Source: Terasakiella brassicae
Lineage (GTDB): Bacteria; Pseudomonadota; Alphaproteobacteria; Rhodospirillales; Terasakiellaceae
Reading direction: 5' to 3'
Assembly (NCBI RefSeq): GCF_014641495.1
Contig: NZ_BMHV01000004.1
Location: 62,001-126,000 of the forward strand
Length of the DNA stretch: 64,000 nucleotides
The position numbers and the translations under genes were made by a program. Positions 48,626-60,654 of this stretch are shown here, piece after piece (positions within the stretch are counted from its first letter, which is position 1; every line of letters starts with the position of its first letter). The notes below the pieces were generated by a model. It was given only the letters and a program-made list of their open reading frames with translations, had not been told where the DNA came from and did not search any database.

Positions 48626-50485
48626 ATGACTCGTATTTCTTTTAAAACATGTAAAAAAAGTCAGGAAGATGCACGAAAAATAATGATGTGGCGTAATGAC
48701 CCGGTCACCTTGGCTGTTTCTTATCATCATACGCCTAAGGTGTGGGAAAATTTTTGGAGGGAATATTGTGACGAATATTTGATGCCCGTTTCGAAGGTAC
48801 CTCAGCCCGTTTTTGCTGAAGTTGATGGCACCCCCTGTGGTTTCTTGAAGTTTGCCCCATTTAAAGACCCTTTGGACCGGAATTTGAGTTGTGTGGAGAT
48901 TTCTATCAATATTGCTCCAAGTTTTCGCAAGCAGGGGTTGGGCCACAGGGTATTGTATGAGGTACAAGATTATTTGAAGCAACAAGGTGTCCAGTCTGTT
49001 TATGCTGAAGTAAGAAAAAATAATGATCCCTCAAAACGAACTTTCCGACGTGCAGGATTTAGATATCTAGGTGATGCTAATAAAACGGTCCATGACACAG
49101 GAGAAGAATGCTGTATTTCTAAATACCTTGTGGACTTAAATATTGAAAAAGCGATTTGCATTGATTTAGACGGAACGTTGGCGGATAGCCTTTCCTGTAT
49201 GGAAGAAGCTTATTATAGTTTTTTGCAGCTTTATGGGGAAGAAGGCGACATAGAGGAGTTTAATCAACTGAATGGTCCTCCTTTACTGAATGTCGTACGC
49301 ATATTACAACAAAGATACGATTTGCCGGGGTCTGTTGTTGAATTACATAAGAAGTATGAAGAAATTATAGATTGCTTTTATGATAAAGCGGCAATTATGC
49401 CCGGTGCTGATCAATTTCTAATTCGCGCTCATCAAGAAGGGTGGGGGATTATCATTGTTACTTCTAACAGTGAAGAACGTACAAGATCTTGGTTGAAGGT
49501 TCGCAAATTATGGCCTCTTGTGAATGCGTTGGTGTGTGGTGAAGATGTTGAAGAAGGGAAACCTTCAAAAGAACCTTATTTGAAAGCCGCTGAAAAAATT
49601 GGTTGCAAGCTTTATAATATAATTGCCATTGAAGATTCGAAAGCTGGTGTATGTTCTGCGACGAGTGCAGGAATTCGCACTTTAATGATAGGACAAGATG
49701 GGAATAATTATGAAGAAGAACAGGCGTGGCCTGTGAAGGATTGGTTCGAAGCAACCTATTTTCTTTTTTCTTTTCAAGGTTTGATGATTTTTAAGTTAGC
49801 GAGAGAATTAAATATTCATCTTAGGGGAGACGGGAGCGTTGATGCTGCACTGAAACATGAAATTGACAGGCTATGGAAAGTAGCTCAGCAGGAAGAGGGA
49901 AATATTTTTTTTAATGGTCCTGTTTGCCGTTTGGTTAACTACGGATATCGTAACCTGACGCTTGAACTTAGTACTTATAAAGTATTTTTGGCTTTACGCC
50001 GGAATATGATGTTACAGACTAAATTAGATTGGTTCTCATTAGCTGTATCAGGTTTGCTGCTTTGTCGTGACGGCCTTGTGGCGGGGAAGCGTTCTAATCA
50101 GGTTGCAGATGAGGCTGGTTATTGGGAGTTGGTCCCTTCGGGGGCATGTGACGACAATGTTTTCGAAGAAGACAAGAGTTATAAAAGTGGACTTGAAAAG
50201 CAAGTTCTCACGGAATTACTTGAAGAAGTTGGTTTGGATCGAAAACAGGTTCGAGTAAGCGATCCGTGTTATTTAATTATCAATACCGAACAACGTTTGA
50301 TTGATGTAGTTTTCAAGATTGAGACAAATTTGTCTTTCTCTGAAATTTCTCAATATTTTCAGAAAGTAAAAGAGGAATATAGTGACATTACGGTTTTAAG
50401 GGAATCAGGTTTAAGTGCTGAAAATATTACCTTAACGAAGACATCGACGTTGATAAAACAGTTATATTGTGACGGGTATATTTAA
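48626..50485 (+). CDS. three-domain GNAT-HAD phosphatase-Nudix protein
   Basis: 619 residues, three catalytic folds in one chain. (1) GNAT N-acetyltransferase, residues 1-170, with APSFRKQGLGHRVL (acetyl-CoA loop R101-K-Q-G-L-G). (2) HAD-like phosphatase, about 174-385: nucleophile D180 and D182 in CIDLDGTLAD, T279/S280 in IVTSNSEE, K312, and acidic E336-D337 in IAIEDSKAG; PGM-like cap between. (3) C-terminal Nudix-like domain, about 425-600: the box reads TELLEEVGL (529-537), so the metal-binding EE is kept but R529 is Thr and the upstream G and E are lost. It is the only plus-strand gene in the glycosylation block and converges on pseB with a 4-base overlap. N-acetylation, dephosphorylation and nucleotide-sugar cleavage would all fit nonulosonic acid synthesis; this is inference. 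Confidence 0.8.
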   Translation: MTRISFKTCKKSQEDARKIMMWRNDPVTLAVSYHHTPKVWENFWREYCDEYLMPVSKVPQPVFAEVDGTPCGFLKFAPFKDPLDRNLSCVEISINIAPSFRKQGLGHRVLYEVQDYLKQQGVQSVYAEVRKNNDPSKRTFRRAGFRYLGDANKTVHDTGEECCISKYLVDLNIEKAICIDLDGTLADSLSCMEEAYYSFLQLYGEEGDIEEFNQLNGPPLLNVVRILQQRYDLPGSVVELHKKYEEIIDCFYDKAAIMPGADQFLIRAHQEGWGIIIVTSNSEERTRSWLKVRKLWPLVNALVCGEDVEEGKPSKEPYLKAAEKIGCKLYNIIAIEDSKAGVCSATSAGIRTLMIGQDGNNYEEEQAWPVKDWFEATYFLFSFQGLMIFKLARELNIHLRGDGSVDAALKHEIDRLWKVAQQEEGNIFFNGPVCRLVNYGYRNLTLELSTYKVFLALRRNMMLQTKLDWFSLAVSGLLLCRDGLVAGKRSNQVADEAGYWELVPSGACDDNVFEEDKSYKSGLEKQVLTELLEEVGLDRKQVRVSDPCYLIINTEQRLIDVVFKIETNLSFSEISQYFQKVKEEYSDITVLRESGLSAENITLTKTSTLIKQLYCDGYI

Positions 50486-51531
50486 AATGTTTCATTTGGG
50501 TAAAGGTGTCTCAGTAGCTGCTTGATCTCTTCAATATCAAGGAAGTGTGGGTTGTTATTACTTGTATATTCAAAGTCTGGTGAGACTTCTTTTGCATCAG
50601 CTAGTTTATTTTCACCAAGTCGCCAAAAAGCATAAGATGGTTGGATTATGTAACAATTATCCATTTCGACCGTTTGTCGTGCTTCATCCATAGGCACCAT
50701 AATTTCATGGAGTTTTTCACCGGGGCGAATGCCAATTATCTTAATGGGGATGTTCGGTGCCATAGCCTTGGCGATATCAGTGATAGTCGTACTTGGAATT
50801 TTGGGAATATAGATTTCACCACCATCCATTCTGGATAAGGAAGTTAGAACGAAATCAACTCCTTGTTGCAATGTAATCCAAAATCGGGTCATCTGATCAT
50901 GGGTAATAGGAAGATGATCGGTACCCTGATTTAATAATTGCTTGAAGAAAGGAATGACACTGCCTCGAGAACCGATAACATTTCCATAACGTACAACGGA
51001 AAAGCGAGTACCATCTTTGCCCGATAAGTTATTAGTCGCAACAAAAATTTTGTCAGAGGCCAGTTTTGTTGCACCGTAAAGGTTTAATGGATTTGCTGCT
51101 TTGTCGGTTGATAAGGCAACAACTTTTTTTACATTCCGGCTCATACAAGCTTCAACAACATTTTCTGCGCCGATGATATTTGTGCGGATACATTCAAATG
51201 GATTGTATTCAGCGGCTGGAACTTGTTTTAAAGCTGCGGCATGGACAACATAATCAATGTCACGTAATGCCATTTGTAATCTTGATTTATCGCGAACATC
51301 TCCGATAAAAAAGCGAATAGTATGAAATTTGGGGTGATTAGCTAATCGATTATGCATCTCATACTGTTTTAGTTCATCTCGAGAATAGATAATAATTCGT
51401 CTTAAGTTTGCTTCATCCAAGAGAGTCTGCACTAATGCATTGCCAAAGGAACCGGTTCCACCTGTAATGAGAATAGATGCTCCATCCAAGAAAGAGGTAC
51501 TTGTTTTAAAAGATGTTAACAGTTTAGACAT
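50482..51531 (-). CDS. pseB: UDP-N-acetylglucosamine 4,6-dehydratase (inverting) PseB
   Basis: 349 residues, short-chain dehydrogenase fold. N-terminal NAD(P)-binding ILITGGTGSFGNALVQTLL, then VVHAAALKQVPAAEYNPFECIRTNIIG, the Ser-Thr-Asp catalytic segment ALSTDKAANPLNLYGATKLASDK, and VVRYGNVIGSRGSV. PseB makes UDP-2-acetamido-2,6-dideoxy-beta-L-arabino-hexos-4-ulose, first step to pseudaminic acid. The C-terminal half with QMTRFWITLQQGVDFVL and RPGEKLHEIMVP is diagnostic for the FlaA1/PseB branch. It overlaps the convergent three-domain gene by 4 bases and lies 5 bases after the Maf gene. Confidence 0.94.
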   Translation of the reverse strand: MSKLLTSFKTSTSFLDGASILITGGTGSFGNALVQTLLDEANLRRIIIYSRDELKQYEMHNRLANHPKFHTIRFFIGDVRDKSRLQMALRDIDYVVHAAALKQVPAAEYNPFECIRTNIIGAENVVEACMSRNVKKVVALSTDKAANPLNLYGATKLASDKIFVATNNLSGKDGTRFSVVRYGNVIGSRGSVIPFFKQLLNQGTDHLPITHDQMTRFWITLQQGVDFVLTSLSRMDGGEIYIPKIPSTTITDIAKAMAPNIPIKIIGIRPGEKLHEIMVPMDEARQTVEMDNCYIIQPSYAFWRLGENKLADAKEVSPDFEYTSNNNPHFLDIEEIKQLLRHLYPNETF

Positions 51532-51536
51532 GACAT

Positions 51537-53540
51537 TTACTCGTTTACCTGTAAATCAATTTTATTTTTTTGCGCAAGGCTCTTGTAGTCATATGGTTTG
51601 AAAGTAGGAGCTTTCTGACCTGATTGATAAGCATTAAACATGATATCTATCCAGTCTAACATCCATAATGTTAATTCTTCCCATGCATCTAGAAAACCTT
51701 CAATAAAGAGATTTGTTTGTTCGTCACTTGTGCGGTTTCCATAAAATGCTGCGGCACGAATCATGCCAGCCATAGATCCATTGATAATGCGTAGTACACG
51801 GTTCGCTTTGTTGTGGTTTTGTTTTTGCAAAGTCCGATAAGCCGCATATATTTCTCTAAAACTTTGTTGTTCAGCGCGTGCGGTTTCAATAAGTTCTGCA
51901 AATGCCTTCTTGAATATTTCCACCTCAGTGCAAACATCCTCCCAATTTATTTCTTGAATTAATTGCCCTTTTTGAATGAGAGGTAGTTGTTCTTCCATGT
52001 TTTTCAAAGTGAGCTTTTTTTGACTTGGTGTAATACTCGATAAGTCAATTGTAGAAGAGACTATAGGCAATGACTTGTTAATGCGTGCACCATGAGAACA
52101 ATTCTTTAATTGCACTTTGTAAACATTTTGGATAGAAGCAAGTGACTGGCGTGAAACGTCAAAAAAATGGCCTGTCTCAACAGTTCCGCCGAAGTTTCCC
52201 GGAACAGAACGATCAAACCGTTTCTCAAATTCTTCATCTAAACCGATATCATAATAAATATGATCTTTATGATGATGCCCACCGCCTGCATAGCGACCAC
52301 AATCAACGCCAAATAAGTAAATGTTTTTAAACCCCATATTTAGGATAAAAGAAACACCTGCATTGGCGACTAGGGGGAAAGAATAGAGGAGCGACTTTGT
52401 TTCATCAAAGAAAAAAGCAGATGAACTTAATCCCGGTCGGGCATATAACCATGTTTGTTTGAAAAATTCTGATACGCCTGCGGTTAAGGTTGAAGAGGAG
52501 ACAAGGGTTATGTCCTTAAGATCATATTTTTCCGCTGTCTTACTGATGATTTCATATACCATTTCAACATTTTCAATTTCTATATGAAAGTCGGGCATAA
52601 TATCGTTAGAGAGTAGAAGATTAAGCGTTGTTCCACATGATACAATAATGGCACGGTCTGCCCATTTCTTGACAGAGGCGATATCGCGCTCTAATGACGG
52701 TCCTGCAGCGACGATGAAGACAGGCAGGTTTTGTGATAGGAATGAGCCACGATTGATCAGCCGAAAGTCAATATTAAGTACATTATGGTAAGTGTTTTCC
52801 ATCATCTTCACTTCATCTTCGAAGAAGCCGCTCGAAATGAACTGAGACTTGGCATATTCTTGAAATTTATTGTAAATTTCGTTTATATCACGAGAATAAT
52901 AATGAATGAGGAAGTGAGAACCTTCAACGAAAACGACAGATAATGAGCTGAGAATATCGCTAAGGGCGTCAATGGATTTAAGAACACTTTGGCCGACGAT
53001 AAAATGAATCTGTATCTCTTTTTCATCAGCCAGGTCAAATATCTCTCTCCAGTCAACACTGGAGAGAGAATGGATGAAAAAATCAGGAACAGGTTCGACA
53101 ATTACGATATTAAAGGCAGCGTCTCTTTCTACGAGATCTTTAATATGGTGAGCAAGGCCAAGTCCAAAAACAAAGAAAAATCCGACATTACGTAAGGGCA
53201 CCTGGGAGTTTACCGAGATTGTATGATCAACACAATGTTTGGCGACTTTGGTTATCAAGCCAATAGAGATTGGAGATAAGTTGCAATGGTTTGGGTTCTC
53301 ATAAAGGATCTGAGATGGTTTCTTAAAGTAATCATCTAGCTGTGTCTGACAGTACTTCTGACTATCTTGACCGTAAAGTTCTACGTTATCGACAGTGATG
53401 TTTACCGGAGTACCATTTTTTAGAACCAGCTTGGAACCAGCCATGTCAAAATGAATGGCTGATTTATATAAAGCAGGGTAACGGTCTTTGAAGGCATTAA
53501 GGTTTTTGTTTTTAAGTTTTTCGACGTTGACCGTAACCAT
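51537..53540 (-). CDS. maf: Maf family flagellin glycosyltransferase (motility accessory factor)
   Basis: 667 residues from ATG 53538-53540 with AGG nine bases upstream (the frame runs on to 53582, overlapping the upstream gene). The central DUF115 (MAF_flag10) glycosyltransferase-like domain is seen in PVFIVAAGPSLERDIASVKKWADRAIIVSCGTTLNLLLSNDIMPDFHIEIE and in NAGVSFILNMGFKNIYLFGVDCGR. The C-terminal helical part follows from about 540. Maf proteins of Magnetospirillum, Aeromonas and Campylobacter transfer activated pseudaminic or legionaminic acid to flagellin before export. It sits between flmG-like and pseB, the expected donor pathway. Confidence 0.9.
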   Translation of the reverse strand: MVTVNVEKLKNKNLNAFKDRYPALYKSAIHFDMAGSKLVLKNGTPVNITVDNVELYGQDSQKYCQTQLDDYFKKPSQILYENPNHCNLSPISIGLITKVAKHCVDHTISVNSQVPLRNVGFFFVFGLGLAHHIKDLVERDAAFNIVIVEPVPDFFIHSLSSVDWREIFDLADEKEIQIHFIVGQSVLKSIDALSDILSSLSVVFVEGSHFLIHYYSRDINEIYNKFQEYAKSQFISSGFFEDEVKMMENTYHNVLNIDFRLINRGSFLSQNLPVFIVAAGPSLERDIASVKKWADRAIIVSCGTTLNLLLSNDIMPDFHIEIENVEMVYEIISKTAEKYDLKDITLVSSSTLTAGVSEFFKQTWLYARPGLSSSAFFFDETKSLLYSFPLVANAGVSFILNMGFKNIYLFGVDCGRYAGGGHHHKDHIYYDIGLDEEFEKRFDRSVPGNFGGTVETGHFFDVSRQSLASIQNVYKVQLKNCSHGARINKSLPIVSSTIDLSSITPSQKKLTLKNMEEQLPLIQKGQLIQEINWEDVCTEVEIFKKAFAELIETARAEQQSFREIYAAYRTLQKQNHNKANRVLRIINGSMAGMIRAAAFYGNRTSDEQTNLFIEGFLDAWEELTLWMLDWIDIMFNAYQSGQKAPTFKPYDYKSLAQKNKIDLQVNE

Positions 53541-53550
53541 TTTTCTATAC

Positions 53551-55431
53551 CTATTTTGCGATGGACTTCTCAACCCAGACATGTTCTAGCAGATCTTCCC
53601 ACTCTTGAATACGGGCTTTATAATTGAAAAGGTTCTCCAATTTATATTTTTTGGCAGAATTTTTACTGAGAAAATCCCGCTTTTCAGGTGAATTTGCCCA
53701 GTTTATGGCAAATTCTACGTATTGGTCATCATCGTCGGCAAGGAAGTTATCTTTTATATCTAATGTATTAAAAAGAAGATGTGCAGGGTAGCTGCTTCCT
53801 TCTTTCCCTTTTTGATAAATTACAGGAAGGCCACATTCCATTGCATTATAAACCGTAATGTAATTTTGATCATAAGAGGCTAAGAAAATATCCCCATGAG
53901 CAAAAAATTCGGCCATATTTCCAGTCGTTACAATATCAATGCGATGGGAGATCCCGTAGTTTCCAAAACGTTGTATTAGAGCGTCCGTGTTATCTTGGGC
54001 TAAGAAATGATTATTTTTCAGGACTAAGGTAGAATTCGGGCATTGGTTTAAAATGCGAGCCCAAGTTGCGACGATTTGAGGAGACAAGCTACCAAGCTCG
54101 GCATCACACAGAAAGGTGATCTGTTGATCTTTTTTCGGGATTCTAAAATTTTGCTTTGTCATAGGAGCTATAAAAACATTTCCCGTTTTTAGTTGTATAG
54201 CTTTTTCAAGGATTGCAATGTTACGTTCCTCTAAGCCAATACCATCGACAAGATAGTCCATTTCGGGCATGCCCGTTCCAAAGGGGCTGCCTATCATAGA
54301 GATTTGAACAGGGGCGATACGCATAGAAAATAGGCGCAATAATCCCGGTTCATTATAGCCACTAAGATCAATTAGAATATCAGGTTCTTCTGCACCGATC
54401 ATGGCGCGCACCGTTTCTATATTGATGCCCTTGATGTTACGCCATTCGCGAAATCCTTTTTGCAATAAGTAATTTTGCAATTCGTGACCTTCCCCTATTC
54501 CGAATGCTATAGGGTGAAAACGGTCATGGTTATGGTGCATTAAGAAATCGGCAAGGGCGGGCGCAATACGCGATGTTTCTAGTTGACCAACGAGATAGGC
54601 AACAACAAGTTTATCTTTCTGCTTTGGTTTTTGGACGTCCCAGTGGCCCGTGTCGTGAATAGAGGATGCTTCCCCCCATTTAATGATTTCAGAAACAATT
54701 TTTTTACGATCAAATTCCGCATCATGAAACATGGAGAGGCATTTTTCTCCGATGATGTTTTCTGGGGTGTTCGAATAACGGATCGCCCAATCGTAAACAT
54801 GACGGGCTTCCGAATGATAACCTAAATGAGCAAGGGATTTGGCTAGGAGTACGCTTATATCTGGGTTTCCCGGGCAAGCATGCATGCCCCCGCGCGCGAC
54901 TTCCATGACGCTGCGCCAAGACCCAGTTAAAAGCAAGCACATACACAAGTTAATATAAGATGCGGGGTCATTTGGCTTCGCCATTGATTGTTGACGATAC
55001 CAATGTTCTGCCATTTCGATATCATTATTGTCCAATGCATGAAGAGCTCGTAATTTCAACGGGTCTTCAACCGTTTTCGTGAAAAATTGATCCAAATCCG
55101 GTAAAAAATCAGGAGAGATTAACTCTTTTAAATTTGAGGCAGGCTTCGCAATGGAGCGTAGTTTTGTATAGTAAAAGGCACTTTTATGATCACCGACTAA
55201 GAAGGCCATAATTGCGCAAAAATTGGCAATCTCTGCGTTTTGAGGATCTTCTTCATGTGCCGCGACAACTGTGTTGTAGGCATCAATATATTCATTTTTA
55301 GAATATAAAGCGAGTGCGAGAGCGTAAAGCGTTTCACTTCTTCGTCCATCATCATTGGTCAACATTTCCTGACACAAAGTGATAATCTCATCCCAGTTTT
55401 TATTTTGGAAATGAATACGCAAATTGTCCAT
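53551..55431 (-). CDS. flmG: TPR-glycosyltransferase, FlmG-like (GT41 / OGT family)
   Basis: 626 residues. N-terminal TPR-like helical repeats (about 1-260: LYALALALYSKNEYIDAYNTVVAAHEEDPQNAEIANFCAIMAF, NDPASYINLCMCLLLTGSW, PDISVLLAKSLAHLGYHSEARHVYDWAI). C-terminal GT41 catalytic part (about 270-626) with EEPDILIDLSGYNEPG, APVQISMIGSPFGTGMPEMDYLVDG and a late ECGLPVIYQKGKEGSSYPAHLL. Caulobacter FlmG, with the same architecture, glycosylates flagellins with pseudaminic acid. Here it lies directly after flbT-flaF and before Maf, with 10 and 41 base gaps, so it is a strong candidate for flagellin modification. Confidence 0.85.
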   Translation of the reverse strand: MDNLRIHFQNKNWDEIITLCQEMLTNDDGRRSETLYALALALYSKNEYIDAYNTVVAAHEEDPQNAEIANFCAIMAFLVGDHKSAFYYTKLRSIAKPASNLKELISPDFLPDLDQFFTKTVEDPLKLRALHALDNNDIEMAEHWYRQQSMAKPNDPASYINLCMCLLLTGSWRSVMEVARGGMHACPGNPDISVLLAKSLAHLGYHSEARHVYDWAIRYSNTPENIIGEKCLSMFHDAEFDRKKIVSEIIKWGEASSIHDTGHWDVQKPKQKDKLVVAYLVGQLETSRIAPALADFLMHHNHDRFHPIAFGIGEGHELQNYLLQKGFREWRNIKGINIETVRAMIGAEEPDILIDLSGYNEPGLLRLFSMRIAPVQISMIGSPFGTGMPEMDYLVDGIGLEERNIAILEKAIQLKTGNVFIAPMTKQNFRIPKKDQQITFLCDAELGSLSPQIVATWARILNQCPNSTLVLKNNHFLAQDNTDALIQRFGNYGISHRIDIVTTGNMAEFFAHGDIFLASYDQNYITVYNAMECGLPVIYQKGKEGSSYPAHLLFNTLDIKDNFLADDDDQYVEFAINWANSPEKRDFLSKNSAKKYKLENLFNYKARIQEWEDLLEHVWVEKSIAK

Positions 55432-55472
55432 TGTGATCTCTCGCTCGTAATGAAGTGGCGGGAAAAATAAGA

Positions 55473-55934
55473 TTAGGCTTCAATATCACCGTCAAAACCA
55501 GCCAGAGCGGTTTCAGTTTCGGTGTTCTCTGCAGGAGAGTTTGATGCTTCTTGGTTTGTTAGTTGTATTGAATCGTACAGGCCACTTGCAATCTCCTTGT
55601 TGATGTTGAACATAACAGGGAGTAGCTCCATGTCTTTTTCTGCGTAAAAATCAATACTTCTTTTGTCTATAAAAGCGGCCAAAGAAAGGATGTTTTGACG
55701 AATGTTGGCTGGTAAAGGACAGTTTGGAGAAAGCATTTCTGATTGAAAAATTGTCCAAAGGCGCCAATTTAAGCGAACCGCAACTTCCGCATCTTCTGTA
55801 TCTTTATTTTCATAAGCTTGCCGGATGCGAATAGCAGCCTGAGTAAGTGCCCAAGCTTCACTTTGCGTTGGATCTCCCGGTTCAGGTACTCTTTGGTACT
55901 TCTGATGGTTTTGCTGGTTCTGGTTGACGGACAT
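55473..55934 (-). CDS. flaF: flagellar biosynthesis regulator FlaF
   Basis: 153 residues. The core ALTQAAIRIRQAYENKDTEDAEVAVRLNWRLWTIFQSEML and LPANIRQNILSLAAFIDKRSIDFYAEKDMELLPVMFNINKEIASGL is the FlaF pattern. FlaF is needed for flagellin synthesis or export in Alphaproteobacteria and acts opposite to FlbT. Its start overlaps the end of flbT by 53 bases, so the two are translationally linked. The last ~25 residues are a Glu/Thr-rich tail not usual in FlaF. Confidence 0.92.
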   Translation of the reverse strand: MSVNQNQQNHQKYQRVPEPGDPTQSEAWALTQAAIRIRQAYENKDTEDAEVAVRLNWRLWTIFQSEMLSPNCPLPANIRQNILSLAAFIDKRSIDFYAEKDMELLPVMFNINKEIASGLYDSIQLTNQEASNSPAENTETETALAGFDGDIEA

Positions 55935-56316
55935 TTTCTAACACTCTAGCTTCGTGATTGATCAATTCTTGTGTCTTTTTTAGTGCGCCGTATAAGTTAG
56001 CGTCATCAATCTCTTTTTCGATATCATTAACGATAGGGGCGCAGCTGGGTGCAGCTTTTATGTATTCTTTGAGATGAAGGTAAAAAAAACGTAAATGTTC
56101 TTCATATTTTTCTGGAAATATGTAGGCGCACTGTAACGCATAATATATTCGCGCTGCAGGAGTAACGCAATCATCGGGCCCAAGAACTTCTGAATCTCTT
56201 AATAAGCTAGCTTTGTTGTGAAGATTTAATGAGATATTGCGATTGCCAGCATTTTCTATGACGGCGCCGTTTATGATGATTTTTTGACCTTTTTTTAAAT
56301 TTACTTGTAAAGCCAC
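55882..56316 (-). CDS. flbT: flagellin mRNA regulator FlbT
   Basis: 144 residues. Conserved FlbT segment at the start: LKKGQKIIINGAVIENAGNRNISLNLHNKASLLRDSEVLGPDDCVTPAARIYYALQCAYIFP. In Caulobacter FlbT binds the 5' leader of flagellin mRNA and promotes its decay until the hook is complete. A matching tandem hairpin is present in the flagellin leader here (57365-57398). It begins 80 bases after the flagellin stop. Confidence 0.93.
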   Translation of the reverse strand: MALQVNLKKGQKIIINGAVIENAGNRNISLNLHNKASLLRDSEVLGPDDCVTPAARIYYALQCAYIFPEKYEEHLRFFYLHLKEYIKAAPSCAPIVNDIEKEIDDANLYGALKKTQELINHEARVLENVRQPEPAKPSEVPKST

Positions 56317-56347
56317 GTCCGCACCCTTGTTTTAAAAGAAGAAGGAA

Positions 56348-56371
56348 GGGGAAAAAAGTTTCCTTTTCCCC
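56348..56371 (-). terminator. weak attenuator-like hairpin between flagellin and flbT
   Basis: On the minus strand GGGGAAAA (56364-56371) pairs with TTTTCCCC (56348-56355). The stem is half A-T and is followed by CCTTCC rather than T, so it would be a partial terminator at best; it could help keep flbT below flagellin. Confidence 0.35.
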
Positions 56372-56395
56372 CCATCCCCATTTGATAGGCTTTGC

Positions 56396-57334
56396 TTATC
56401 GGAACAGACCCAATACGGCTTGTTCTGATTGACCAGCAAACGACAGAGCTTGAATACCCATTTGTTGACGAGTTTGCAAGGCCAGAAGGTTTGCACCTTC
56501 TTCGTTCAAATCGGCAACAGTCAATTGGGAAGCACCACTTCCAAGAACGTTGGAGTACTCTTGAGTAAAGTCTGCACGAACTTGAAGAATAGCTACGTTA
56601 CCAGCCATTTTAGCAGCTTCCGCACGCAGGTTAGAGATGGTGGCGTCAAGCGACAAAACAGCCAAATCGGCTTGTTCGTTGAATGATGCCAACGTTGCAG
56701 CAGTTGAGAATTCGAAAGTCGAAATCCCTGCTACGAAACCAAGTGCGGACAGTAGTTTTTGCCCCATTTCTGTGGCTGCAGTTTCGAATGTCAAACCCAC
56801 AGCGGAGAATGAGCCACCGCCTGTAGCTACTTGAATAAAGCCGGAAAGTTCAAAGTTAATACCATCAACTTTGAGTTTTGAATCTGCGGAGTCGGAAAAA
56901 CGTACGCTAAGTGAGGATGCTGTTGAGTTCAACAGATTCAAACCCTGGTACGTTGCATCACCAACGATATGAGAAAGCTGCTGACCAAGATCACCGATTT
57001 GTTTATTGAAAGCCTCACGTTGAGTCGGATCACCGGAACGTGCACTATCAATAACACCTTTGATTTGGTCAACGAGTTTTTCCATTGCACTCGTTGCTTC
57101 TAGAGCTGTTTTCAGGGCATTGATCCCTTGCTCAATTGAAGACTTACGGTTCATCAAATCGCTAGCGCGGTCGCTCAGTGATTTGGCTTGGAAAAACTTC
57201 ACCGCGTCATCTACTGGACCTGCAACAGACAGACCAGTGGACAAGCGCCCTTGAGTTCTTTCAATAAAACCGGAAGTGCTTTGCAATGACAACAGATTCG
57301 AACGTACTGCCGTAGATAGAGTTATATCAGCCAT
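56396..57334 (-). CDS. fliC: flagellin
   Basis: 312 residues. N terminus MADITLSTAVRSNLLSLQSTSGFIERTQGRLSTGLSVAGPVDDAVKFFQAKSLSDRASDL and C terminus GANLLALQTRQQMGIQALSFAGQSEQAVLGLFR are the helical D0/D1 ends of flagellin. The variable D2/D3 part is small (about 140-200), typical of alphaproteobacterial flagellins. No cysteine. Ser/Thr residues in the exposed middle could be glycosylation sites. It is the only flagellin gene in the window, starting with AGGA about 8 bases upstream, and its leader contains two hairpins (57365-57398). Confidence 0.95.
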   Translation of the reverse strand: MADITLSTAVRSNLLSLQSTSGFIERTQGRLSTGLSVAGPVDDAVKFFQAKSLSDRASDLMNRKSSIEQGINALKTALEATSAMEKLVDQIKGVIDSARSGDPTQREAFNKQIGDLGQQLSHIVGDATYQGLNLLNSTASSLSVRFSDSADSKLKVDGINFELSGFIQVATGGGSFSAVGLTFETAATEMGQKLLSALGFVAGISTFEFSTAATLASFNEQADLAVLSLDATISNLRAEAAKMAGNVAILQVRADFTQEYSNVLGSGASQLTVADLNEEGANLLALQTRQQMGIQALSFAGQSEQAVLGLFR

Positions 57335-57364
57335 TTTTTTATTCCTTCATTCTAAAGGTGAGAA

Positions 57365-57398
57365 GATACCTTCCTGGTATCAGCTGTACATCACAGCT
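57365..57398 (-). promoter_or_regulatory. two adjacent perfect stem-loops in flagellin mRNA leader
   Basis: Two 17-base perfect 6-5-6 inverted repeats follow each other without a gap: GATACC-TTCCT-GGTATC (57365-57381) and AGCTGT-ACATC-ACAGCT (57382-57398, plus strand). In the mRNA they lie 31 to 64 bases before the flagellin start. The mRNA loop of the start-proximal hairpin is AGGAA, resembling a ribosome-binding sequence. Confidence 0.65.
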
Positions 57399-57448
57399 AT
57401 ATCAGACTACCTTATGCGGGTGTGAAGGGCAAGAGTTTTTGCGCATTT

Positions 57449-57473
57449 GGGAAGGGGGGTAAACGCCCTTCCC
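57449..57473 (-). terminator. terminator-like hairpin after the SpsF-like gene
   Basis: GGGAAGGG (57449-57456) pairs with CCCTTCCC (57466-57473) around a 9-base loop, between the SpsF-like stop and the flagellin leader. The 3' side is AAATGCGC and not T-rich, so termination would be Rho-assisted or partial. Confidence 0.5.
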
Positions 57474-57499
57474 GGCTAGGGTTATTAAATGGCGTTTGT

Positions 57500-58234
57500 T
57501 TAAGATAATCTTGTTTTATCTATTTGAAATTCATTTATTTTTTTTAGGTCAGGTTCCTGTTCTAAAATTTTTAGAATTTGTAAATAGCTATATTGTTCTT
57601 TAGATGGTGCGGGTAGGCGATTAAAAATTTCATTGATCAATTCAAAATCTTGGGGTGTATCTAGCGTCCATCTTAAATGTGCCAAATTATCATTGGGGTG
57701 GGCAAGGTTACTGATCTTGGCGTGAGGGTTGGTGCGAATGAAAGGGGTGACATGTTCGCGTTCATGAGGTGATTTAGCTTGACGAAATGCTTTCTGGAGC
57801 CATTCAAGCTTGAAGAACTCGCAATCTAATCCATGTGGCCAGGTTGGCGGAATGTTATTGGCGCAGTAGTCTGCATTTTCTTTTAGGCCGTGATCAATTA
57901 CTGCCGCACAGACTTGTGGATCTATCAGTGGACAATCGGACGTCACTCTAAGAATGTAATCCGCTTTCAGTTTTTGGGCTGCTTGATAATATCGGGCAAG
58001 AACATCCGTTTCAGACCCTCGAAAGACCTCTACATCGCATTGTAAAGCTTCTTCTGCAACGGGGTCAGAGTCTGCACTTTTTGGTATGGCGCAACAGACT
58101 GTGTTTACGTTTTCAATGGCCTTGCACCGCTCAAGCACGTGTTTCAATACGGTTTGGCCAGATAATTTTTTTAAAATTTTGCCATGTAGGCGGGTCGAAT
58201 TCATTCGGGCTTGAATGATCGCAACGATATTCAT
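57500..58234 (-). CDS. SpsF-family cytidylyltransferase / glycosyltransferase family protein
   Basis: 244 residues. MNIVAIIQARMNSTRLHGKILKKLSGQTVLKHVLERC is the nucleotidyltransferase N terminus, close to the CMP-sugar synthetases; RVTSDCPLIDP is the following nucleotide-contact motif. COG1861/SpsF proteins of spore coat and flagellar sugar loci have this form. Here it probably activates a nonulosonic acid with CTP, in the place of PseF. It follows the flagellin-like gene by 8 bases and precedes flagellin. The start ATG overlaps nothing. Confidence 0.8.
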   Translation of the reverse strand: MNIVAIIQARMNSTRLHGKILKKLSGQTVLKHVLERCKAIENVNTVCCAIPKSADSDPVAEEALQCDVEVFRGSETDVLARYYQAAQKLKADYILRVTSDCPLIDPQVCAAVIDHGLKENADYCANNIPPTWPHGLDCEFFKLEWLQKAFRQAKSPHEREHVTPFIRTNPHAKISNLAHPNDNLAHLRWTLDTPQDFELINEIFNRLPAPSKEQYSYLQILKILEQEPDLKKINEFQIDKTRLS

Positions 58235-58242
58235 GGGCGAAT

Positions 58243-59379
58243 TTACACGCTAATATTCATCAAGGTATTCATTAGCGGATTGTTACCCGTAAAACGTGCA
58301 AACATGTTAGCATATTGGCTGCGTTGGGCCATCGCATGAGCCAAGGAGGTGGAGACAGATTGAAGTTGTTGTTGAATGGCTTGCTTTTTTACATCAATCT
58401 CGTATTGCATTTCCACCTGAAGCTCAATGTTTTTATCGTATGATTCTGTAATCACGTTTTCGGCCATGCCTTGGTAGTAATTCATGACAGTTAGAGCTGC
58501 CTCATAACGACTTTTTTCTAACTTTAGTACTTCTTCAGCAGCTTCGAGATCGTCTTTTGCGGTCGTGCGAGTTGTATCGTTATCCAATTTGCTATAAAGC
58601 CATGAATCCAAAACACCAATGCCTTTACGATAGATTGTCCCGGTAAATGTTTGCGGCGAAGCTGTTTCGCTGCCAATTGTGAACTCTATATCATCTCCAG
58701 AAATTGAATCGACTACGATATTATCGAAACTGCCAACTGTGGATGTTTCTTCATCTGGGTAGGTGTCGTATCTACGTATGAAATCGCCACTATAATTAGG
58801 TTGCCAACGCTTACCGTCCTGATCGACAATGTAATAATCCGATTCAACATTCAGGCCTTGAACGGTGCCGTAGCTTCCTGTTGGTGCTGTTGGGTATTCA
58901 AGTGTACGGGTGTTGGAGGCGAGAAGATTTGTTTTTGTGCGTGTGTTTGAAGCAAGATCGCGCACGCTATTAAGTATTGAATCAAAAGCAGCAGCATAAC
59001 CACTGGAATCAAAATAATCACCGCTTTCTTCGGCTTGTTCTGCGTTATTAACGGTAAGACGCAGAGTCTCAATTCGGTTCAGCATCCCTTCTATGCGGGA
59101 TAAAGAGTTGGACACCACATCCTTTGCGTCAGATATGTTTTGTTTCATATCTTCATAAGGTTTGATCTTGTAGGTGTTATAGTTGATTTTACTGGTGTAG
59201 CTGTCTTGGATCACCTTGCTTTCTCGCGCAAGTTTTTGATTGTATTGCGTCGAAAGCTGCGCACTAAGTTGTCGTCCTTGTATTTGCGCCAATCTTTGTG
59301 CAGTAGATTGAGTAGCACCGGACAAAGAGGTCGTTGTGCCGTTAGAAAGTGCTGAGAAAATATCTGCCATAGCAGCCAT
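58243..59379 (-). CDS. flagellin-like protein of unknown role
   Basis: 378 residues. No name can be given. The ends are long helices: residues ~20-115 (AQRLAQIQGRQLSAQLSTQYNQK ... DVVSNSLSRIEGMLNRIETLRLTVNNAE) and ~270-370 (AAEEVLKLEKSRYEAALTVMNYYQG ... VSTSLAHAMAQRSQYANMFARFTGN). Between them is a beta-rich, variable middle with Thr/Ser/Gly. This helix-variable-helix layout is that of flagellin, FlgL or FlgK, but the sequence is not a normal member of these. It lies between pseI and the SpsF-like gene, in the same strand as flgK, flgL and flagellin. ATG 59370 is an alternative start. Confidence 0.6.
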   Translation of the reverse strand: MAAMADIFSALSNGTTTSLSGATQSTAQRLAQIQGRQLSAQLSTQYNQKLARESKVIQDSYTSKINYNTYKIKPYEDMKQNISDAKDVVSNSLSRIEGMLNRIETLRLTVNNAEQAEESGDYFDSSGYAAAFDSILNSVRDLASNTRTKTNLLASNTRTLEYPTAPTGSYGTVQGLNVESDYYIVDQDGKRWQPNYSGDFIRRYDTYPDEETSTVGSFDNIVVDSISGDDIEFTIGSETASPQTFTGTIYRKGIGVLDSWLYSKLDNDTTRTTAKDDLEAAEEVLKLEKSRYEAALTVMNYYQGMAENVITESYDKNIELQVEMQYEIDVKKQAIQQQLQSVSTSLAHAMAQRSQYANMFARFTGNNPLMNTLMNISV

Positions 59380-59427
59380 CCATTCTTGGAATATTGCGCA
59401 TTCTACGCATCATGTAAAATCAAAGCT

Positions 59428-59456
59428 ATTATAGCCGAGAAAAGCAAAAAGGTAAA
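59428..59456 (-). promoter_or_regulatory. sigma-70-type promoter for the flagellin-like gene
   Basis: Minus strand: -35 TTTACC (59451-59456), 17-base spacer, perfect -10 TATAAT (59428-59433), which sits within the small palindrome GCTATAATAGC. It is about 50 bases before the flagellin-like start. Confidence 0.55.
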
Positions 59457-59598
59457 CGGTGCTATTTGTAAAAATACTTTCTTTATCTTATTAGAGATCG
59501 TTCAAACTATGTAATTTTAATGTATGAAACCGTTTATAACGTTTATGTATTATGCGCGGTCTGATCTTAGAAAGTGCTTAATTTTCTTGAGAAACCTG

Positions 59599-60627
59599 CT
59601 AAGGGTTAAGTTCGGTGTGTTCTATTTTTAACGCAGTTCCGCATTGTAGGTCCGCAGTTGCGATAGTTCCTAGGACTTTTTCATAATACTGCGGGGATAA
59701 TCCAAAACCAGGCCGGATGCGGCGAATATTTTCAGAAGTGAAGTATTCCCCTTTCTTGATGTTTTTTACAACATAAATTGATCTTCTGAATTGGTTGTTT
59801 GCTTCTTCTACTTTCTTTTGATTAAAGCTAGCCTTGCCTTTTGCAAGAAATGCACGTTGTAAACTTTGTGCGAGATGGTTGAGATCTTTAGGTTCCATTG
59901 AAAAATTGGCATCAGGCCCGCCATCTGAACGAGCTAATGTGAAGTGTTTTTCGATGATCATAGCGCCGAAACCAATGGATAAAGTTGCAGCTAAATTGTC
60001 AAGAGTATGATCGGAGAGACCGACGCTACATTTAAAAGTTTCTTGTAAGAGGGGAATGGTACTTAGGTTGATCTGTTCGATCGGGGTGGGGTAACCGCTC
60101 ACGCAGTGTAATAAAGCCAGCTCTCCCCCTCCATATTCACGAATAACATTTACGGCTTGCTGTATTTCTTCCAAGTTTGCCATGCCCGTTGAGGCAATAA
60201 TAGGTTTTTTAGTTTGAGCAATATATTTAATCAACGGTAAATCAGTTAGTTCAAATGACGCTATTTTATAAAAGGGTGTGTTGAGATCTTCGAGTAAATC
60301 GACAGCGGTTTCGTCAAATGGTGTGCTGATGCATGTGATTCCAATACTTTTAGCATAGGCGAAAAGGTCAGGGTGCCATTCGTAAGGGGTGTGCGCCCAG
60401 TTGTAGAGATCCCATAATTGGTAACCATCCCATAGGCCGCCTTTTATCTGGAAATCCTCAATACTCGATTTTATCGTCATTGTATCAGGTGTATAGGTTT
60501 GTAATTTAACACAATCTGCGCCATTGTTTTTTGCTGCGGCGATGATTTGTTTTGCACGTTCTATGGAACCGTTATGGTTACCTGAAATTTCAGCAATTAG
60601 ATAAGGCTTTTGCAGAGAAGAGAACAT
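59599..60627 (-). CDS. pseI: pseudaminic acid synthase PseI
   Basis: 342 residues, NeuB-family TIM barrel followed by an antifreeze-like SAF domain (from about 275: EANNQFRRSIYVVKNIKKGEYFTSENIRRIRPGFGLSP). PYLIAEISGNHNGSIERAKQII at the start and FTLARSDGGPDANFSMEPKDL are PseI-specific variants rather than NeuB or LegI ones. It condenses PEP with the 2,4-diacetamido-hexose to yield pseudaminic acid. ATG 60627 is preceded by a GTG in frame; AGG lies nine bases upstream. It is co-directional with flgL and the flagellin-like gene. Confidence 0.93.
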   Translation of the reverse strand: MFSSLQKPYLIAEISGNHNGSIERAKQIIAAAKNNGADCVKLQTYTPDTMTIKSSIEDFQIKGGLWDGYQLWDLYNWAHTPYEWHPDLFAYAKSIGITCISTPFDETAVDLLEDLNTPFYKIASFELTDLPLIKYIAQTKKPIIASTGMANLEEIQQAVNVIREYGGGELALLHCVSGYPTPIEQINLSTIPLLQETFKCSVGLSDHTLDNLAATLSIGFGAMIIEKHFTLARSDGGPDANFSMEPKDLNHLAQSLQRAFLAKGKASFNQKKVEEANNQFRRSIYVVKNIKKGEYFTSENIRRIRPGFGLSPQYYEKVLGTIATADLQCGTALKIEHTELNP

Positions 60628-60654
60628 CACATAAGACCTGACAAAATGTTGTGA

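Follow-up and report, generated by a model that had tools for sequence, protein, structure and literature searches.

This locus raises the question of how pseudaminic acid could be completed in a genome that matches no PseG, and whether a single chain of three fused catalytic folds takes its place. PseG frees 2,4-diacetamido-2,4,6-trideoxy-L-altrose in one step. In the standard route, the freed sugar is used by PseI (excerpts of PMC7910423). The window (the whole stretch of 64,000 nucleotides that was analyzed) holds one open frame in which GNAT, HAD-IA and Nudix folds follow one another, next to genes for pseudaminic acid synthesis and flagellin glycosylation:

48626..50485, + strand: GNAT-HAD-Nudix fusion, one open frame, 619 aa
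48626..49129, + strand: GNAT domain, about residues 1-168 (Pfam; PseH-like role proposed)
49142..49741, + strand: HAD-IA domain, about residues 173-372 (D180, D182, S280, K312, E336, D337)
49778..50482, + strand: NUDT22-like Nudix domain, about residues 385-619 (E530, E533, E534)
50482..51531, - strand: pseB (TIGR03589, 522 bits, over the cut-off)
51537..53582, - strand: Maf-type flagellin glycosyltransferase (Maf_flag10_N and MptE-like)
53551..55431, - strand: TPR and GT41-like protein (domain scan)
56396..57334, - strand: flagellin, likely acceptor (named by eye from the sequence)
57500..58234, - strand: CMP-sugar cytidylyltransferase, PseF-like by context (CTP_transf_3, E 6.7e-26)
59599..60630, - strand: pseI, pseudaminic acid synthase (TIGR03586, 478 bits, over the cut-off)

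The fusion lies on the strand opposite to the listed pse, Maf and flagellar genes around it and meets pseB tail-to-tail, the two stop codons overlapping. GC content is 39% in the fusion, pseB and Maf genes, 41-42% in the GT41-like, PseF-like and PseI genes, 46% in the flagellin gene, and 49-52% in FlgE, a FliK-like gene and FlhA (flagellar genes named by eye); given the lower GC of the fusion and the pse and glycosyltransferase genes, the fusion appears to belong with them to a single glycosylation island. The GC contrast of positions 48626-60630 with the flagellar genes resembles that of an acquired island. Among the matches listed, the PseF-like cytidylyltransferase scores under the cut-off of the NCBIfam models.

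An earlier note, made from the sequence alone, had described this block as containing pseB and pseI without pseC, pseH or pseG. Whole-genome searches (83 contigs, 99.7% complete) indeed placed none of these three genes inside the window, but pseC is not lost to the pathway: it sits 7 kb past the window (C4:133001-134119, over the cut-off), and a second PseC match on C14 falls under the cut-off. PseB, PseC and PseI are all over their cut-offs in this genome, and the PseF-like gene is also there. Canonical pseG and pseH elsewhere, which the note had named beforehand as refuting its reading, were not found: PseG (TIGR03590) has no match in the whole genome, the fusion included, and PseH (TIGR03585) has none either, both at E<=0.001. 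Ordinary genes elsewhere, which the note had allowed for, do account for the PseC step and, at that threshold, for neither the PseG nor the PseH step. NeuC was set aside as the missing hydrolase of this genome, with no matches at E<=1e-20. The absence of PseH says little, because none of 29 genomes, among them some with PseG, had a match over the cut-off of this model, and 25 had matches under it. An N-acetyltransferase and the release of the sugar from UDP are what is missing and what the fusion could supply, and it seems to fill two steps for which no other candidate was found in its own genome.

The presence of three catalytic folds in one chain, as first read from the sequence, is borne out. 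A Pfam scan assigns Acetyltransf_1 to fusion residues 59-145 (E 2.8e-14) and HAD_2 to residues 179-354 (E 2.9e-25), and gives no Nudix match at E<=0.01 in the last 235 residues, where the fold was recognized through relatives and an AlphaFold2 model. Among the matches listed from the 150 genomes searched (its own included), the sole full-length match to the fusion is in its own genome, and the remaining matches to the whole fusion mostly reflect general HAD or GNAT similarity. The fusion is the most compact form of the module seen, with its three parts in one chain.

We consider it probable that the fusion performs the PseH step, UMP release and dephosphorylation in a PseG-free route. The GNAT domain would acetylate the 4-amino group of UDP-4-amino-4,6-dideoxy-L-AltNAc (the PseH step), the NUDT22-like Nudix domain would cut the pyrophosphate of the acetylated UDP-sugar into UMP and sugar-1-phosphate, and the HAD domain would remove the phosphate to give free 2,4-diacetamido-2,4,6-trideoxy-L-altrose for PseI, Nudix and HAD together replacing PseG. 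The computed basis comprises the domains, their kept catalytic residues, the PseG/PseH/NeuC gap, the complementary distribution, the Aeromonas swap and the NUDT22 fold; we infer the substrates, products, step order and the GNAT as a PseH-type enzyme. The chemistry put forward in the earlier note is supported, not proven, because distribution, Aeromonas gene position and the NUDT22-like fold fit it, in small numbers of genomes, related lineages and draft assemblies. The fusion and PseG would share a pathway position, and PseG in some relatives shares a frame with a GNAT similar to that of the window, yet the two have no sequence match and other folds: PseG releases UDP in one step, whereas the fusion would cut the pyrophosphate to UMP and sugar-1-phosphate and need a second enzyme.

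The distribution of the module was compared with that of PseG in 150 genomes, its own included. Nudix profile A1 has a strong match in 10 of them and a weak one in one; G132 (7e-13) was left out of the module counts. PseG matches in 72 of the 150 genomes (47 over the cut-off) and PseI is over its cut-off in 44. Forty of these 44 match PseG (38 over the cut-off), and the module occurs in none of the 40; PseI without PseG is found in G000, G001, G050 and G093, three of which, the fusion's own genome included, carry the module. A Fisher test of module versus PseG in the 44 PseI genomes, which ignores kinship, gives p 3.0e-4; the test was repeated without the genome from which the hypothesis came, giving p 3.3e-3, kinship again ignored. 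When NeuB/PseI matches at E<=1e-20 are taken (110 genomes), PseG is missing in 8 of 9 module genomes versus 35 of 101 others (p 0.002, or 0.005 without the own genome; kinship ignored), and over all 150 genomes in 9 of 10 versus 69 of 140 (p 0.018; kinship ignored). Within the genus, G000 and G001 have the module and PseI without PseG, G003, G004 and G005 have PseI and PseG without the module, and G002 has neither module nor PseG, with no PseI over the cut-off. The comparison is not strictly one of like with like, because PseB- and PseC-like matches beside PseG are weak in G003 and G005 and none is typed in the G004 stretch; the sugar of these three genomes may differ from that of the fusion's genome.

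Searches for PseG in 19 named genomes gave none over the cut-off and one 22-bit fragment (G155); 14 of the 19 carry a strong module, and the other five contain distant Nudix homologues that are not evidence (L068-L072, distant Nudix loci, were searched for PseG and not counted as module genomes). The 19 do not include L057, L060, L061 and L067, which were taken as contigs of the already searched G067, G090 and G114. The 14 strong carriers, the 10 relatives and a second Aeromonas make up 25 module genomes. Comparing them for loss of pseG, as had been proposed, showed PseG over the cut-off in a single one (G049), which carries PseG and the module together and perhaps makes two different nonulosonic acids; NeuC is over its cut-off in 6 of the 25. 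One 18-kb stretch of G049 (L047, G049:C1:1674000-1692000) holds PseG, a formyltransferase-like gene, HAD and Nudix. G050 has PseI over the cut-off and neither PseG nor module. Beside its pseI lies a GNAT fused to a DUF218 domain (L073:8985-10037, G050:C2), the GNAT part of which matches PseH under the cut-off (1.4e-12), and which is perhaps a third, unrelated replacement of PseG.

A swap of gene position is seen in Aeromonas, where the 16-kb surroundings of PseG were compared in each of four PseG-bearing genomes. In G175 and G173, the genes run pseB-pseC-AKR-pseF-class III aminotransferase-PseG-pseI, with about 0.6 kb untyped before pseI; in G202 and G172, PseG and pseI are the only genes typed. 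A. sobria (G150), with PseB, PseC and PseI over their cut-offs, and G169 keep the same order as far as the aminotransferase, followed by HAD, methyltransferase, Nudix and pseI, so that the module stands in the slot before pseI that PseG has elsewhere. PseG matches in 29 of 37 Aeromonas genomes (20 over the cut-off), two have the module and neither of these has PseG (Fisher p 0.04), and six have neither. PseG absence consequently has other explanations too, as G050 and these six genomes lack both.

Part of this layout is in print. Subgroup ID of the Aeromonas flagellar glycosylation islands is reported to have no PseG ortholog and, between its class III aminotransferase and pseI, to contain genes for a hypothetical protein, a methyltransferase and a HAD-IA hydrolase, a layout that matches L050 and L084; subgroup IE also lacks PseG and has other genes in that place (excerpts of PMC7874193, 2021). 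From gene order, we infer that the hypothetical protein of subgroup ID is the Nudix of the module. The word Nudix is absent from the main text of that paper, which in the parts available ascribes variable pseG/pseH to chimeric PseG-PseH proteins without proposing replacement by these genes.

The same distribution bears on a different use of the module, in which it decorates or diverts the sugar towards a side-branch sugar-1-phosphate or other nucleotide sugar while an unrecognized hydrolase releases UDP for PseI. G049, with PseG and module together, would suit such a diversion, and G050 and the six Aeromonas genomes with neither leave room for the hydrolase; the fusion's own genome, without a PseG or NeuC match, the occupation of PseG's slot in Aeromonas, and the complementary distribution among PseI genomes all argue against it, and we regard it as unlikely.

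For the preferred reading, a PseG-free route by GNAT, Nudix and HAD, separate genes in other genomes are informative. In four genomes (G006, G067, G090, G114), a GNAT is fused to a NeuB-type synthase with HAD and Nudix genes adjoining, a fusion confirmed by Pfam in G067. G001, of the same genus as the window, has PseF-like, PseB, HAD, formyltransferase, PseI and Nudix genes together, and in G093 HAD adjoins pseI, and a Nudix gene lies together with a formyltransferase-like gene on another contig. A scan of named genomes gave 23 loci, some from one genome or species, of which 17 have a HAD of the fusion's type and 14 a NeuB/PseI-type gene. The module shares a locus with PseB-, PseC- and PseI-type genes in Aeromonas sobria, three of four Nitrobacter loci (PseB only as a frame of about 115 aa in L051) and one Planctomycetota genome (PseI cut by the stretch edge); in the stretches examined, the fourth Nitrobacter lacks PseB and Caenispirillum lacks PseI. 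L062 and L063 carry formyltransferase-HAD-Nudix without NeuB in the stretch, and L064 carries NeuB and Nudix without HAD. Flagellin-like frames adjoin the module in L041, L061 and L067 also. GNAT fused to a NeuB-type synthase was further observed in L038, L039, L041, L042, L052 and L059; the L038 synthase falls under the cut-off for both NnaB and PseI, NnaB scoring higher, and represents an uncharted synthase type.

Relatives of the HAD and Nudix genes were found in nonulosonate clusters across alpha- and gammaproteobacteria, Melainabacteria and Planctomycetota, and their neighbor varies between GNAT, formyltransferase and methyltransferase, the last rather than GNAT being found in Aeromonas and one Planctomycetota genome. 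This variation suggests that the neighbor may determine which group the nitrogen receives. Tentatively, and with somewhat more doubt than belief, we envisage a widespread PseG-free nonulosonic acid route in which a NUDT22-like Nudix and HAD core would release UMP, phosphate and the free hexose, and an exchangeable acetyl-, formyl- or methyltransferase would set the substituent of the 4-nitrogen, giving 7-N-acetyl, -formyl or -methyl sugars.

In sialic acid routes with a 6-phosphate as starting point, the NeuB-type synthase is followed by a HAD phosphatase; PseB is a 4,6-dehydratase. The role of such phosphatases raises the alternative that the HAD part is a nonulosonate-9-phosphate phosphatase and the Nudix part a housekeeping hydrolase, with which the L038 synthase, closer in score to NnaB than to PseI and below both cut-offs, would agree. 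The product of PseB is 6-deoxy and offers no site for a 9-phosphate, PseB-, PseC- and PseI-type genes occur in the window's genome as well as in A. sobria and the three Nitrobacter loci, and HAD stands alongside Nudix in most of the loci scanned (the 17 of 23); this role was set aside as highly improbable.

In the HAD domain, the class IA motifs (DxD, Ser/Thr, Lys, acidic) are all kept, the six residues listed above showing no variation in 20 of 20 aligned members. Among solved structures, the top match of the domain is the carbohydrate phosphatase TM_1254 (E 3.6e-27), with beta-phosphoglucomutases among the next; the domain is over the cut-off of subfamily TIGR01509 and, among the matches listed (25 of 36 families), under that of the equivalogs. 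It shares class and intact catalytic motifs with these beta-phosphoglucomutase-type HAD-IA sugar phosphatases but, unlike them, is fused between a GNAT and a Nudix domain.

The GNAT domain contains R101-x-x-G-x-G106, which we take to be the acetyl-CoA motif, and R101, G104 and G106 are invariant in 9 of 9. Its profile A6 was run over 25 loci, selected in part for their long frames, and in 15 of them finds a GNAT in PseG's own frame; the best is L086 (E 5.4e-24, or 2.5e-11 with the window GNAT alone). As a control, profile A3 was run against every frame of 120 aa or longer (2,077 in all) in the fetched loci, mostly nonulosonate loci, and at E<=1e-3 gave 27 matches: 8 of the close group (window fusion and GNAT-NeuB), 14 in PseG frames and 5 others. 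Beyond the close group, the top-scoring match is L036 (5.5e-19), which lies outside any PseG frame and has no known PseG link, and the next two are in PseG frames; as judged from these profiles, the link of this GNAT to PseG appears real, though not exclusive. Among the 50 listed fold matches of the GNAT, YncA and phosphinothricin acetyltransferases come first; aminoglycoside and similar acetyltransferases are also present, and none is labeled PseH.

Structure prediction, proposed earlier as a check, gave a GNAT model with pLDDT 91.9 and a Nudix model with pLDDT 88.9 and pTM 0.86 (AlphaFold2). NUDT22 chains occupy ranks 1-6 of the Foldseek matches of the latter (E 8.5e-14 to 3e-12; TM up to 0.77 by query; identity 16-19% over the fold matches); the leading matches are Nudix proteins, the first other than NUDT22 being RppH (E 8.2e-6). 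The Nudix profile, built from 28 relatives of which six are distant, likewise has human NUDT22 as its best solved chain (E 6e-6, positions 27-221 of 241). The window domain is thus like this human UDP-glucose/galactose hydrolase in profile and fold over most of its length, with an N-terminal extension, aligned as well as the core, and an atypical Nudix box in common; it differs in its bacterial origin, in its fusion with or proximity to HAD and nonulosonate genes, and in that its UDP-sugar substrate is putative.

The box keeps its glutamates and has lost its arginine, as the earlier note read it: T529 stands where the Arg is expected (TELLEEVGL at 529). NUDIX PF00293 matches 14 of the 28 relatives and misses the domain of the window itself. 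The worry raised in that note, that the Nudix is altered or inactive, is weakened because the Arg position is variable across relatives and the glutamates are kept (E530 and E534 do not vary in any of the 28, and E533 stays in at least 90% of alignment A4), and because NUDT22 converts UDP-glucose (abstract of PMC10101856) although a conventional Nudix box is reported to be missing from it (PMC5688067, in part; the screen in that paper found no substrate for NUDT22). A degenerate or regulatory fusion with a catalytically dead Nudix part, to which the Thr in place of the box Arg and the missing Pfam match would point, was set aside as very unlikely on these conserved glutamates, the variable Arg position and the activity of NUDT22.

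If the proposed route holds, there are two chemically different solutions to the PseG step, the one without PseG being found in two proteobacterial classes and probably in other phyla too; annotation by PseG would miss such producers, NUDT22-like enzymes would gain a bacterial role, and the PseG-less Aeromonas islands in print would be explained. The published cell-free Pse pathway could serve to test it (excerpts of PMC7910423). In the open-licence literature, no paper was found for nonulosonic acid with Nudix, nor for flagellin glycosylation with Nudix and haloacid dehalogenase; a paper on pseudaminic acid and Nudix deals, in its excerpts, with Nudix-type sugar dehydratases, and the module is unmentioned in excerpts of PMC13317340, PMC3765264 and PMC7371886. 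Shewanella oneidensis MR-1 is described with PseB and PseC and without clear PseH, PseG, PseI and PseF orthologs (PMC3765264, in part).

NUDT22-like Nudix relatives were also observed in Planctomycetota and a cyanobacterium (L068-L072), with no nonulosonate synthase typed nearby. Lastly, the PseF-like cytidylyltransferase occurs in frames of about 680-690 aa (L044:255-2300, L066:4985-7057, L086:13656-15692 and L088:9413-11479), and those of L086 and L088 also match class III aminotransferase.
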